Below, piece after piece: positions 276-32,321 of a stretch of 42,140 bases of DNA. The notes under the pieces were generated by a model. The model did no database searches. It saw only the letters and a program-made list of their open reading frames with translations, and was not told where the DNA came from. The DNA is from a virus. Position numbers and translations under genes: made by a program. Each line of letters begins with the position of its first letter. Within the stretch, counting starts at the first letter, position 1. The stretch is from the IMG/VR virus record IMGVR_UViG_3300033571_004124, positions 1 through 42,140 of that record; one strand, 5' to 3'.

Positions 276-301
276 AGGGATCCAACGGATCCCTTTTTTT
301 A
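274..301 (+). terminator. Rho-independent terminator after gp32
   Basis: A perfect 10-bp stem, AAAGGGATCC (274-283) with GGATCCCTTT (287-296), has a 3-base AAC loop and runs into a T tract to 300. This is a strong intrinsic terminator for the plus-strand gp32 transcript. On the minus strand the same stem is followed by only three T's (TTTAAAC), so it would work weakly, if at all, for the convergent operon that ends at 299. Confidence 0.85.
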
Positions 302-1873
302 TTGTGTAGCGTATCTGCTTCTAATGTAGGAATTTACAGACGCTTCTTGATTCCTGATAGGACTCCTAATAATATTGTTTTGACGACTAACATTATTTAC
401 TGTTGGCGCATTAACCAGTGTAGAATTATTAGACTCTGGAGACTGCATAGATGCAGTAGCGTTTTGTTCAGATCTGGTGTAGACATTATCTGCTTTATTA
501 CTTGGTGCTGGTGTTTCTACATTTTTCGCTATTCCTGCAAAAGGATAGAATGGACCCACAGAAACTTCTTTATTAATAATCGGTACTGTAAATTTAATTT
601 CTGGAATACCAATTTTAGAAATCATATTTAAAATACCGTCTTTAATATTTTTAAAGAAATTACCAATAGGTTCTACAATGTATTCATTAACAAATTCATG
701 AACAGTTTTAATAATGTTTTTAATACTTTCTGCGTCAACTAAACCAAATGACAGAAATTCTAGAATTCCAGCAAGTCCACTAATAAGTGCTTCTGTGATA
801 GAACCAGTTTCTTTCCAAGCCTTAAATCCATCCATAATACCACTCACTAAAGAACCAATAATCATAACTGGTGCAAACACTTTAGTTAATACCTTAAGAA
901 TATTCATTGGATTAAACATAATTTTAAGCGATTTCATAATACTTGCAGTGAACCCACCTAGTATACCAGAAAGTAATCCATCTCCCTCATCTTTACTAAC
1001 TTGTTTAACCTTTTCTGTATTACTTTTTCCATTCACACCACCAGTGTTTTCTGCTATTTGCTGTAGCAAACTAGTTTGGTTAAGTTCAACCTTTGCCATT
1101 TCGGTTTCTTTTTCTGAATCCATAGTAGAGAAGTCTGCTTTGGGAGCAACCCTAAAATCAAGCGCAGCTAATTTTGTTGTTTCTTGATTTCTAGTTTTTA
1201 ATAAAGATTTACCTTGCTCAGTTCCAGCCAATTGTTTTTCGCTGATACCTAGTTTAGTGTATTTTGAAATTTCATTTTCATTTTGTTTAATAATTTTTTC
1301 TTGAGATTTAACTTGTTGTAACTTATTAACAGCTTCCTCTTTTGTCACACCTCTAAGTTTCATCTCACCTTTAACAAAATTCTTATCATCTTCTCTTTTA
1401 GATAAAGCACGATCAACAAAACCACCACTACCTTTAGTCACTATTCCAGCAGTATTTAAAACATTACGAAGAGATCCAAACTTATCAGAAAAACTACCTT
1501 TAACACGCTCGCCAGTAGTTTGTCCTTGTCTTTCTTTAGCCAAATCAGCAATACTTTTGGCAGAATCTTTCGTTAAACTAACAAGTTCTTTAAGAACATC
1601 AAGTTGCTCTTTGTTAACCTTAATTTCTTCCTCTTTATTTTTTACTTCTTGAGAACTTTTGATAACTTTTGCTGATTTTGGATTTAACTCGCTATTAAAA
1701 GCAACCTTTTGTAATTCAGAACGTGTGTCTCCTAGTTGCTGGTTAGCCAGTGAGCCTGACATAGCAGCTTTCTGTAATTCAGATCCTCCTGATATAATGC
1801 TTTGTTGTCTTTGCATTTCCAGGATCTTTTTAAAGTCTGAATAATTTACTTTAGGTTTTGCTTGTTCATCCAT
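299..1873 (-). CDS. tail tape-measure-like protein (gp29 position)
   Basis: 524 aa, last gene of the minus-strand late operon. Residues 1-290 are polar, rich in Lys, Glu and Gln and predicted helical/coiled-coil (for example 66-115 and 175-270). Residues 299-380 are hydrophobic with Gly (ASIMKSLKIMF, FAPVMIIGSLVSGIMDGF, LISGLAGILEFLSF). Long helical N-part plus hydrophobic segments is the usual tape-measure layout. The length is close to T4 gp29 (590 aa), which sets tail-tube length and belongs to the hub. The position directly after gp26 and its frameshift extension, where tape measures always sit in tailed phages, supports the call. Its ATG (1873) overlaps the stop of the upstream frame by 8 bases, suggesting translational coupling. 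Sequence similarity to gp29 itself is not obvious by eye, so the family assignment is from architecture and position. Confidence 0.65.
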   Translation of the reverse strand: MDEQAKPKVNYSDFKKILEMQRQQSIISGGSELQKAAMSGSLANQQLGDTRSELQKVAFNSELNPKSAKVIKSSQEVKNKEEEIKVNKEQLDVLKELVSLTKDSAKSIADLAKERQGQTTGERVKGSFSDKFGSLRNVLNTAGIVTKGSGGFVDRALSKREDDKNFVKGEMKLRGVTKEEAVNKLQQVKSQEKIIKQNENEISKYTKLGISEKQLAGTEQGKSLLKTRNQETTKLAALDFRVAPKADFSTMDSEKETEMAKVELNQTSLLQQIAENTGGVNGKSNTEKVKQVSKDEGDGLLSGILGGFTASIMKSLKIMFNPMNILKVLTKVFAPVMIIGSLVSGIMDGFKAWKETGSITEALISGLAGILEFLSFGLVDAESIKNIIKTVHEFVNEYIVEPIGNFFKNIKDGILNMISKIGIPEIKFTVPIINKEVSVGPFYPFAGIAKNVETPAPSNKADNVYTRSEQNATASMQSPESNNSTLVNAPTVNNVSRQNNIIRSPIRNQEASVNSYIRSRYATQ

Positions 1874-2054
1874 TTTTTCTACTCTCTAGTCGTTGTTTTT
1901 CCTCGTCAAGATACTTCACGAGCATATCAACATATACTTCTCTTTCGAACGGCATCATATTCTCAAGTTCCGTTAACGAATATTTGTGGTATTGCATTAA
2001 AGCAAAATTCATTTTATAATGATTATACAAATTTTCATGACAAAGATTAATTAA
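1866..2054 (-). CDS. frameshift extension of gp26, 48-aa gp51-position frame (tail assembly chaperone T part)
   Basis: A frame open from the poly-T tract at the end of gp26 to TGA at 1866-1868. It encodes 14 residues (LINLCHENLYNHYK) followed by a 48-aa segment beginning at an ATG at 2012. That segment contains YHKYSLTELENMMPFEREVY, the kind of motif seen in second-frame tail assembly chaperones just before tape-measure genes. The internal ATG has no Shine-Dalgarno sequence, while the whole frame is open back to the slippery site, so synthesis as a gp26 fusion of 299 aa (237+14+48) is more likely than separate initiation. It lies where T4 has gp51, but is far shorter. It overlaps the tape-measure start by 8 bases. 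The openness of the frame is seen directly; the chaperone role is inferred from lambda G/GT-type systems. Confidence 0.7.
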   Translation of the reverse strand, partial: LINLCHENLYNHYKMNFALMQYHKYSLTELENMMPFEREVYVDMLVKYLDEEKQRLESRKNG

Positions 2055-2764
2055 AAAAAACTGTCGAGACCCTCCAACACCTTATGGTGTTTTTCGTTAC
2101 AAACAGGGCAGGTATAATCAACTTCCTGTTTTAGTCTCGGCATAGTTTCAAAGAACTTTTGAATTCTAGAAAACTGGTCAGCTGTAAGATTTTCCAAAAA
2201 TTCAAGAATCTCTTGTTTCTTTTGATCTTTAGCTAGATAAACTTCTTCTGAATTGTAGATAGATTCCACACATTCAATAACCACTTTAAAAACTGAATCG
2301 ATGTCACCATCATTAACATTTTCTATTTCTTTAATAATTTCTAAAGAAGGATATTTCATTATAATACCAACGTCATCAAACAGTTCTATTTTTTTACTGT
2401 GTCCCTCAGGAAAAGACACTTGAATTTTAGTTAAATCAAACCCAATTTTCACTTTGGCTTTTTCGTCTGTGCATGTATCACAAGGAAAAATTAAATCTAC
2501 GTTTTCACCTACAGACTTAGCTCTAATTTGAGTGAAAATATATTCTAAATCAAATGTTGCCAGTTTATTTAAATCTAACTTGGTATTAACGCATGAACTA
2601 ATAATACCCTTTAGCGTGTCAACCATAACAACTGGATCTTCACTTTGTTGAGCTATTAGCAGCGCTTTTTCCTCTTTAACAAGAAATGGTCTAAACTTAA
2701 CCAATTCTTTACTCGATGGAACCTGCAACGTGTACGTCGGCGACGTACTAATTGGTAATGCCAT
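2051..2764 (-). CDS. 26: gp26 baseplate hub / tail assembly protein
   Basis: 237 aa. The N-terminal region contains VKFRPFLVKEEKALLIAQQS, a hallmark of the T4 gp26 family. A CxxC pair at residues 95-98 (PCDTC) and a second near the C-terminus (CPVC) could form a small metal site. In T4, gp26 (208 aa) is needed to assemble the central hub and functions together with gp51 and gp29. A good Shine-Dalgarno (AAGGAG) lies at the end of gp16, which stops two bases upstream. The frame ends in SerPhePhe-stop on an 8-T run, preceded by an internal Shine-Dalgarno. A fraction of ribosomes probably shifts -1 and makes a longer product. By analogy with lambda G and GT, the short and long forms would be tape-measure chaperones. 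Confidence 0.85.
   Translation of the reverse strand: MALPISTSPTYTLQVPSSKELVKFRPFLVKEEKALLIAQQSEDPVVMVDTLKGIISSCVNTKLDLNKLATFDLEYIFTQIRAKSVGENVDLIFPCDTCTDEKAKVKIGFDLTKIQVSFPEGHSKKIELFDDVGIIMKYPSLEIIKEIENVNDGDIDSVFKVVIECVESIYNSEEVYLAKDQKKQEILEFLENLTADQFSRIQKFFETMPRLKQEVDYTCPVCNEKHHKVLEGLDSFF
2053..2075 (-). promoter_or_regulatory. programmed -1 ribosomal frameshift signal
   Basis: Read on the minus strand: GGAGG (2075-2071), a 10-base spacer (2070-2061), then eight T's (2060-2053) decoded as AGT TTT TTT TAA. This gives a canonical U UUU UUU slippery heptamer directly before the gp26 stop. A Shine-Dalgarno about 10 bases upstream of the slip site is the spacing that stimulates -1 shifting in E. 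coli dnaX. The -1 frame continues without a stop for 62 codons. A weak inverted repeat (TATAAT-C-ATTATA, 2015-2027) lies downstream, too AT-rich to be a strong stimulator. Confidence 0.75.
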
Positions 2765-12408: not shown

Positions 12409-12801
12409 ATGACTAGAAAAACAAGAAATTTCTCAGACTTAGATTTAAATTTTACTGCACATCCAGTAACGGGAGATATTTCTCGTAGATTTGATGAAAC
12501 ATCAATAAAAACTGCTTTAAAGAATTTAATCTTAACGAATAACTTTGAGCGTCCATTTCATAGTGAAATAGGAACTCCCATAAGAGGAATGTTATTCGAA
12601 CCGTTTTCTCCGATGCTAGTTAGTAATATTGAACGGGCTATATTTGATGCAGTGAGTTCATTTGAACCTAGAGTTAATTTAGATAATGTTGAAGTGGTTG
12701 CTAGCCCAGATGAAAATTCATTGGTAGTAACTTTAACCTACAGAATTTTAAACACAATAAGACCAGTTACTCTAGATATAACACTAGAAAGAACAAGATA
12801 A
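12409..12801 (+). CDS. 25: gp25 baseplate wedge subunit
   Basis: 130 aa from ATG 12409 (T4 gp25 is 132). A GTG at 12361 would extend the frame into the PAAR gene and is unlikely. It has the gp25/GPW lysozyme-like fold signature: DLDLNFTAHPVTGDISRRFD, IKTALKNLILTNNFERPFHS, GTPIRGMLFEPFSP, and a C-terminal VVTLTYRILNT strand. The EPR-like core motif conserved across contractile systems (T6SS TssE) is seen as FEPR in SSFEPRVNLDNVEV. gp25 clamps the wedge and helps start sheath polymerisation. It stops directly before the gp6 ATG with no gap. Confidence 0.93.
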   Translation: MTRKTRNFSDLDLNFTAHPVTGDISRRFDETSIKTALKNLILTNNFERPFHSEIGTPIRGMLFEPFSPMLVSNIERAIFDAVSSFEPRVNLDNVEVVASPDENSLVVTLTYRILNTIRPVTLDITLERTR

Positions 12802-29574: not shown

Positions 29575-30033
<459 letters not shown>

Positions 30034-30047
30034 CAGGAGAAATAAAA

Positions 30048-32321
30048 ATGGCATCAATAATTAGAATTAAACGATCGCTGACTGCTGGAGATCCAGCAGT
30101 TCTATCAGCAGGCGAATTAGCCTACTCTGCTGCCGACTATAACACAGTCGCTGGTGGCGGTAGACTTTATATTGGTATCGGCACTGAGTCTGGTGGTGGC
30201 GACGCAGCATCACATTTAATTATTGGTGGTAAATATTTTACTGACAAATTAGATCACACTCCAGGTATTCTAACTGCATCGTCTGCTTTAATTGTTGACG
30301 CAGACAGTAAAATTGATAACTTACTGGTTGATAATTTACAGCTAAATGGTAATACAATTAGCTCTACAAACAACAATGGTAATATTACATTAGACCCAAA
30401 TGGTACTGGTTTAGTTGAAATTATTGGTGACCTTACTGTAACTGGTACGATTAATGCTGACATTGCAGCTGACTCTGCTGCTAAATGGACTACTGCCAGA
30501 GATCTATCATTAACAGGTGATGCTACTGCTACTCTTACTGCTGTTGATGGCACAGCAAACGTATCAGCTGAGTTAATATTAGCCACTGTTAATACTAATG
30601 TAGGAACATACGGTTCTTCTACATCTGTTCCAGTTATTACAGTTAATGGTAAAGGTTTAATTACTGGAGTTTCTACACAGTCTATTTCTACTACTTTAAC
30701 AGTAGCAGATGAATATAGTGCTACTGCACAAATTTCATTGGCTGAAGACACACTTTCGATCGTTGGTGGTCAAGGTATTAATACAATCATCATCGGTGGT
30801 CAGCCTACTGTAACTATTAGCGCTACTGATGCGACTGAAACTGAAAAGGGTATTGCATCGTTTAATGGTGATGAATTTAGCGTAAATTCTGGTGAAGTTA
30901 CTTTGCAAATGCAAGGTGGGCATGCTGGAGGAACATATGGTTCATCTACAGCAATTCCAGTAATTACTGTTAATACTAAAGGTATTGTTACTGGAATAAG
31001 CACAGAAAATATTAGTACTTCGTTTGATATTTTTGGTAATACTGGTTTCGATACATTTAACACTGGCGAAGATTTAACATTTACTGGCTCTGGTGCAATT
31101 AATACTGCTGTTACTGACAACACAGTTACAATTTCTGTTGATACTGCTACTACATCTGAGCTTGGTGTTGCTTCTTTTAGTCAATTATCTTTTGATGTAA
31201 CTGATGGTGTTGTAAGTATTAAGGCTGGTGGTGTATCTAATTCACAATTAGAGAATAACAAGATTACAATTGGTACCACAGATATTTCTCTTGGTGATAC
31301 CGCATTAGTTTTAGAGGGTTTAGATCGTATCAATGTTGATAACATTGAGATAACAAATAACGAAATACGTTCTACAGACACTGACGGTGTTATATCTTTA
31401 AACCCTGATGGCGACGGATATATTTCTGTTAACAGTTCTTATATTAAAAATTTATTAGATCCACAAGACCCACAGGACGCTGCTACTAAAGCCTACGTAG
31501 ACAATGCTGTTACAGGTCTAACTTGGAAAAACTCAGCGCATTTATTAGCAACTACAAACGTGGCGTTGACTGGTAGTACAGGTACATTGGTTATTGATAG
31601 TCACGCACCATTATTTTCTGGTGATGTTGGATATAGAATTTTATTAATTGGTCAGACAACTGACAGCGAAAATGGTATTTACGTATATAACGAAACTGGT
31701 GGTACATATACATTAACTAGACCAGTAGACGCAAATAGCTATCAAGAATTAATCGGTGCAGCCATATTCATTAAAGATGGTGCATTATACGCTAATACTG
31801 GTTGGGTACAATCTAATCACACTATTACTAATTTCACAAATCAAGACTGGGTACAGTTTAGTGGTGCTGGAGCATATTCAGCAGGTGATGGTTTATCACT
31901 CGATGGAACAGAGTTTAGTGTTAATGTTGCTACCAATGGTGGAATCGAGATTGTTGCCGATAGCTTACAGTTAAAGCACACAATCGCAGGCGACGGTTTA
32001 ACCATAACAAATGGTGTTCTAGATGTTGTTGGTACTGCAAATAGAATTACTGTTGTCGCAGATGGTGTAGATATTGCATCAACTTATGTTGGACAGTCAT
32101 CTATTACCACGTTAGGTACTATTACTTCTGGTACATGGGAAGCCGACACGATCGCTGTTAACAGAGGTGGTACTGGTTTATCTTCTTACGCTAATGGCGA
32201 TTTATTAGTCGGTAATGTGTTAGGATCTCTGTCCACGCTTCATGTTGCCGCAAATGGTAAAGTTTTACAGTCAAATGGCACAACATTAGTTTACGGCGAC
32301 GTAGATGGTGGCACGTACTAA
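30048..32321 (+). CDS. tail fibre protein with Mtd-like N-terminus
   Basis: 757 aa from ATG 30048, chosen because it has a strong Shine-Dalgarno (AGGAGA); upstream in-frame codons overlap the previous gene. The N-terminus (IRIKRSLTAGDPAVLSAGEL, AYSA, GGGRLYIGIG) resembles the N-terminal attachment domain of phage tropism determinants and cyanophage fibres. The middle has beta repeats including two GTYGSST motifs (about residues 186 and 301). Around 465-490 there is LLDPQDPQDAATKAYVDNAV, a common fibre helix-turn before the distal domain. The distal part (NGIYVYNETGGTYTLTRPVD) continues to a RGGTGLSSYANGDLLVG element and ends in a Gly-rich tail. It is a likely receptor-binding fibre. Confidence 0.85.
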   Translation: MASIIRIKRSLTAGDPAVLSAGELAYSAADYNTVAGGGRLYIGIGTESGGGDAASHLIIGGKYFTDKLDHTPGILTASSALIVDADSKIDNLLVDNLQLNGNTISSTNNNGNITLDPNGTGLVEIIGDLTVTGTINADIAADSAAKWTTARDLSLTGDATATLTAVDGTANVSAELILATVNTNVGTYGSSTSVPVITVNGKGLITGVSTQSISTTLTVADEYSATAQISLAEDTLSIVGGQGINTIIIGGQPTVTISATDATETEKGIASFNGDEFSVNSGEVTLQMQGGHAGGTYGSSTAIPVITVNTKGIVTGISTENISTSFDIFGNTGFDTFNTGEDLTFTGSGAINTAVTDNTVTISVDTATTSELGVASFSQLSFDVTDGVVSIKAGGVSNSQLENNKITIGTTDISLGDTALVLEGLDRINVDNIEITNNEIRSTDTDGVISLNPDGDGYISVNSSYIKNLLDPQDPQDAATKAYVDNAVTGLTWKNSAHLLATTNVALTGSTGTLVIDSHAPLFSGDVGYRILLIGQTTDSENGIYVYNETGGTYTLTRPVDANSYQELIGAAIFIKDGALYANTGWVQSNHTITNFTNQDWVQFSGAGAYSAGDGLSLDGTEFSVNVATNGGIEIVADSLQLKHTIAGDGLTITNGVLDVVGTANRITVVADGVDIASTYVGQSSITTLGTITSGTWEADTIAVNRGGTGLSSYANGDLLVGNVLGSLSTLHVAANGKVLQSNGTTLVYGDVDGGTY

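Follow-up and report, generated by a model that had tools for sequence, protein, structure and literature searches.

In a marine T4-like phage, the gene gp26 and its extended form gp26-51 very probably constitute a G/GT-type pair of tail-assembly chaperones, the longer member of which is predicted to arise by -1 frameshifting at a U UUU UUU heptamer at the 3' end of gp26. This reading is supported by a heptamer and an open -1 frame that are shared by relatives, by a synonymous constraint on the slip codon and by T4 gp51, in which the same two parts are fused. The window (the whole stretch of DNA analysed) was the 42,140 nt of the IMG/VR record IMGVR_UViG_3300033571_004124, positions 1 to 42,140. 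Neighbouring genes for a terminase small subunit, tail tube, DNA end protector, head closure protein and tail tube cap identify the phage as T4-like, and among named phages Pelagibacter phage HTVC008M and cyanophages are closest to it. The features of the junction were as follows:

2051..2764, minus strand: gp26, predicted short tail-assembly chaperone (TAC-N / G-like), 237 aa, PF12322; supported by PF12322, phrog_150 and relatives in 80 viral contigs
2071..2075, minus strand: internal Shine-Dalgarno-like GGAGG, 10 nt 5' of the slippery heptamer; read in the sequence, spacing kept in relatives
2054..2060, minus strand: slippery heptamer U UUU UUU, within the 8-T run 2053-2060; 81/81 loci, TTT as first Phe in 66/66
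2051..2053, minus strand: zero-frame stop TAA of gp26, immediately 3' of the heptamer; read in the sequence
1866..2054, minus strand: -1 frame extension (gp51 / T-like domain), 62 codons plus TGA; supported by phrog_634, the end of phrog_150 and its being open in relatives
299..1873, minus strand: next gene, putative tape measure protein, 524 aa; supported by position, coiled-coil/hydrophobic character and the HTVC008M counterpart

On the minus strand gp26 ends in GAC AGT TTT TTT TAA, with eight T's at 2060-2053, and a GGAGG (GGAGGG) at 2075-2071 lies exactly 10 nt from the heptamer T TTT TTT (2060-2054). A preliminary description had reported this gene ending, the heptamer and the spacing, all of which proved correct when the strand was re-read. 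The -1 frame is open from 2054 to 1869 for 62 codons (LINLCHENLYNHYKMNFALMQYHKYSLTELENMMPFEREVYVDMLVKYLDEEKQRLESRKNG) and closes with a TGA at 1868-1866, the TGA end of the extension overlapping the ATG (1873) of the next gene. Joined at FF-LINLCHEN, the predicted fusion has a length of 237+62 = 299 aa, and the coordinates agree with the 62-codon frame and the 237-aa and 299-aa predicted products that had been put forward. No ATG occurs in the -1 frame before extension codon 15, and the one there lacks a Shine-Dalgarno sequence (ATAATCATTATAAAATG), as had been claimed for the short ORF of the window phage; the first eight extension codons in the window contain no ATG, GTG or TTG. Heptamers of the form T TTT TTN in register are not rare by themselves (the window's genes hold 10 in their 13,527 codons); open 62-codon -1 frame windows numbered 0/11,667 inside these genes.

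Comparison of the junction across relatives, as the preliminary description had suggested, bore out the T-run and the open -1 frame throughout and the upstream GGAGG in most loci. The first set consisted of 80 IMG/VR loci fetched by gp26 (39-70% amino-acid identity), giving 81 loci with the window and 66 genes after dereplication at 85% identity, and the second of 80 loci for which the extension was the sole criterion, 70 of them with junction DNA absent from the first set. The heptamer stood in register at the same codons in 81/81 loci of the first set plus the window (55 with T TTT TTC and 26 with T TTT TTT). Across the 80 gp26 relatives and the window the -1 frame contained no stops, including the stretch between the T-run and the gp51 block that had been singled out for checking; truncations of the frame at two loci (L005 and L011) were only apparent and proved to be contig ends. 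Within the second set, 79/80 loci had the same heptamer and open extension layout, and the exception (L181) retained the heptamer with the gp26 frame broken upstream. GGAGG or GAGG was found at 10 nt in 56/81 loci of the first set plus the window and in 63/79 of the second. A 48-aa block had been pointed out in the extension; conservation covers this block and the rest of the 62 codons.

The codon usage at the slip site points in the same direction. The first Phe of the site is encoded by TTT in 66/66 dereplicated genes, compared to 74% TTT for Phe elsewhere in gp26, and no other gp26 codon reaches the 100% synonymous identity of this slip codon (the mean being 0.50 and the next best value 0.85). 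The codon 5' of it always ends in T, whether it encodes Ser, Asn, Asp or Ala. Because the arrangement is conserved in relatives, the occurrence of the T-run together with an open -1 frame is, on this comparison, not due to chance.

Family searches assigned gp26 to PF12322 (E 6.8e-62; 209 bits against a curated cut-off of 24.5) and to phrog_150 (E 6.7e-68). The extension matched phrog_634 (gp51, 'baseplate hub assembly catalyst'; E 2.5e-22) as well as the last 36 positions, at the C-terminal end, of the gp26-family profile phrog_150 (E 6e-4), a hint that phrog_150 includes members fused to the extension. An AlphaFold model of gp26 had a pLDDT of 85.8. A fold search with this model returned nothing significant, with a weak match to the HK97 gp13 chaperone 2ob9 (E 2.4, probability 0.30), and a sequence search for solved structures found none for the gp26 profile or T4 gp51.

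Both parts occur in a single frame in T4 gp51 (249 aa), which matches PF12322 over residues 1-201 (E 3.9e-52) and phrog_634 over residues 147-246 (E 1.2e-23), with the extension profile aligning to its C-terminus at residues 208-244, and T4 gp26 matches PF12322 alone (E 8.8e-64). The predicted fusion of the window aligns with T4 and 44RR gp51 with no gap across the junction. Judged by these matches, T4 gp26 is the short form and T4 gp51 is the gp26-51 fusion in one open frame. Full-length relatives of T4 gp51 were present in 1,334 records, which together with the architecture of T4 gp51 indicates that T4-type phages have the long product as an ordinary protein. The proposal that gp26 and gp51 form a G/GT-type pair is supported by the open -1 frame of the relatives and by the lack of a good Shine-Dalgarno sequence for the short ORF in the window phage, and further by a T4 protein having the same two parts in one frame. 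The T4 and 44RR genes 26 and 51 are two divergent genes. Enterobacter phage EC-F2 (L100) carries a fused gp51 (1501-2244) and, next on that strand, a short ORF (2237-2794) that is weakly gp26-like (profile E about 0.1) and adjoins gp25; the pair is possibly a trace of the tandem duplication from which the two divergent T4 genes arose.

Under the frameshift reading most ribosomes would terminate at the TAA to release the 237-aa gp26, and a minority would slip on U UUU UUU into the -1 frame, giving the 299-aa gp26-51. Two things would hold the slipping ribosomes back, pairing between 16S rRNA and the GGAGG 10 nt upstream and the stop codon directly after the slip site. The parts would be those of a standard bacterial -1 site, with tandem slippage on U UUU UUY and an internal Shine-Dalgarno sequence at the dnaX spacing. 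By analogy with lambda gpG/gpGT, the common gp26 part would serve to coat the product of the next gene, the putative tape measure protein, and the rare extension to bring in subunits of the tail tube or hub. Whereas the signals, the conserved -1 frame and the T4 fusion can be read from the DNA and protein sequences themselves, we infer from them the slipping, its rate and the chaperone roles.

The next gene had been called a tape measure, and this putative identification stands on its position, its coiled-coil and hydrophobic character and its HTVC008M counterpart, annotated 'putative tail tape measure', but not on similarity to T4 gp29, to which a profile search gave no significant match. At nine loci (L027, L028, L033, L042, L043, L060, L071, L077 and L084, the last being HTVC008M) about 300-360 nt lie between the extension and the long next gene. 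A gap of this size fits an extra small gene, and a hypothetical gene is annotated there in HTVC008M, Mosig and Melnitz.

Elsewhere in the window, the gp25 ORF (PF04965; 12361-12801) opens with a GTG inside the PAAR-tip gene, but translation probably begins at the ATG at 12410. A 780-aa ORF (29979-32321) with head-decoration-like PHROG matches opens with a TTG that overlaps the preceding gp9/10-like gene, and its real start is likely the ATG at 30049, after an AGGAG. In the preceding 144-aa ORF (29599-30033) the match to T4 gp9/gp10-like baseplate-fiber connectors is confined to their N-terminal 40-60 residues, which makes this ORF a putative stand-alone docking domain.

A downstream RNA hairpin was absent in the window (z = +0.8). 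Many cyanophage relatives have a stable hairpin 5-8 nt 3' of the heptamer, with z down to -4.7, and the window and most 8-T relatives are without one. The mean hairpin z was -1.46 for the T TTT TTC class, -0.45 for the 8-T class and -0.48 for control windows. Five T TTT TTC loci (L044, L054, L063, L065 and L075) have a stem-loop in the first 40 nt after the heptamer, with z from -3.6 to -4.7 (e.g., -4.7 in L054 and -4.2 in L044). A downstream pseudoknot or hairpin was rejected as a necessary stimulator on account of its absence in the window and is a feature of some relatives. The putative frameshift stimulator comes in two flavours, with and without a stem-loop.

Public records treat the extension differently. 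The gp51 frame is listed as a separate CDS in P-SSM2, HTVC008M, Mosig, Melnitz, Sf-FS3, ValKK3 and I1_9 and is left unannotated in others (e.g., Aeromonas Aswh_1), and a joined gp26-gp51 CDS was found in none of the public records examined. The extension had been thought hidden and mostly missed, which is true of the records where it is uncalled, but it is often annotated, as a separate short 'gp51'. Taken as they stand, the seven separate annotations would make gp51 a small protein of its own, translated by reinitiation or from a weak start after the end of gp26, and some loci do have an ATG overlapping or near the gp26 stop. The overlapping form (TAATG/TGATG) occurs for example in ValKK3, YB07 and I1_9, where a separate gp51 made by reinitiation is possible. 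We nevertheless regard this explanation as very unlikely, since the window and half of the dereplicated loci have no start near the junction: the first eight extension codons are without ATG, GTG or TTG in 33/66, and the residues encoded there are conserved. Conservation in relatives likewise covers the residues upstream of the first extension ATG (LxxLxHESLxNYYKxNF), the invariant heptamer would be left unexplained, and in T4 gp51 the domain is fused to a gp26-like domain.

Transcriptional slippage in bacteria is known at runs of about nine identical bases, and with eight T's in the window and its close relatives the fusion might instead come from transcripts edited by RNA polymerase slippage on the run, not from slipping of the ribosome. 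The length of the run makes this highly improbable, as 46/66 dereplicated loci have only TTTTTTC; six T's are too few for efficient polymerase slippage but ideally suited to slippage of tandem tRNAs. The X XXY YYZ register and the 10-nt spacing of the GGAGG also point to the ribosome. Homopolymers are prone to sequencing errors, and with ten T TTT TTN in the window's own genes one could also envisage that the T-run is a matter of chance, or that a mistake in assembly divided what is a single gp26-51 gene. This explanation deserves next to no credence and was refuted by the comparison of relatives, in which >140 distinct loci, drawn from many samples, and the finished genomes of isolates show the same arrangement.

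Ribosomal frameshifting at the poly-U site, our preferred reading, has its signals in several further phage groups. Junction heptamers of the form T TTT TTC/TTT/TTG were found in Kyanoviridae, pf16, Menderavirus YB07, Variovorax V45v66, Vibrio ValKK3 and Aeromonas Aswh_1, and that of Rhizobium I1_9 is T TTT TTG. The Ackermannviridae keep an open and conserved -1 extension after gp26 (281 records) and are without the heptamer, the junction reading GAA ATT TTC ATT TAA TKT TTG, with CTT TTT or CTT TTC in Vibrio members. A start-like codon lies over the gp26 stop in four of these phages, an ATG in Dickeya JA15 (L093) and an ATT in Klebsiella May (L091), Salmonella N6 (L095) and Erwinia Bue1 (L101). 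A tentative scenario, to which we give somewhat less than even chances, is that the T4-like ancestor used poly-U frameshifting, that the Tevenvirinae swapped it for a duplication (26 plus a fused 51) and that the Ackermannviridae lost the heptamer and may use a third way, either a start or restart at the AUG/AUU over the gp26 stop or a non-canonical slip.

A conserved tail-assembly-chaperone frameshift, that of lambda gpG/gpGT, was reportedly described by Xu, Hendrix and Duda in 2004. As in lambda, the gene lies upstream of a (putative) tape measure gene, the heptamer is near the 3' end of the short frame, and a -1 extension yields short and long predicted products with a shared N-terminus. 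Unlike lambda, the slip site is U UUU UUY (lambda G GGA AAG), the short protein is longer (237 aa), the extension is shorter (62 aa) and a stop lies at the slip site; sequence similarity between the two systems is not expected. The T4 gp26 and gp51 belong to the same family (PF12322) with the same extension domain (phrog_634), gp26 being short and gp51 long, but T4 has two separate, divergently transcribed genes without a frameshift where the window phage has one gene with a slip site. The internal Shine-Dalgarno sequence 10 nt upstream of the heptamer is shared with E. coli dnaX, which differs in its A AAA AAG heptamer (a U-run here), in the strong downstream hairpin that the window phage lacks and in its frameshift product, a truncation in dnaX and an extension here.

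Lambda gpG and gpGT chaperone the tape measure protein, and wide conservation of the G-T frameshift has been described for phages with long tails, 'except T4' (Atkins et al., 2016, PMC5009743). The T4 gp26 and gp51 have been listed as hub assembly chaperones (Leiman et al., 2010, PMC3004832). Tail assembly chaperones of T4-like phages were identified by Vladimirov, Gautam and Davidson (2022), as cited in PMC10885494 and PMC12846349; the former reports from that work that some T4-like phages have a short gene and a fused long gene, and the latter names it as the source for poly-T slippery sequences in the chaperone genes of T4-like phages. Going by that work as cited, frameshifted T4-like chaperones are already known in kind and the window phage is a further case. 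As far as we have checked, the present analysis contributes a broad comparison, evidence that synonymous change is constrained at the slip codon, the distinction between two kinds of stimulator and the recognition of the Ackermannviridae as an exception.

In contrast to the 'except T4' of the review, many T4-like phages from marine and other habitats would keep a G-T-type frameshift, with T4 26 and 51 corresponding to its short and long product. The finding also offers a simple rule for repairing the annotation of hundreds of genomes in which gp51 is separate or uncalled, and would recast two little-known 'baseplate hub' genes as encoding tail assembly chaperones whose stoichiometry can be tested.
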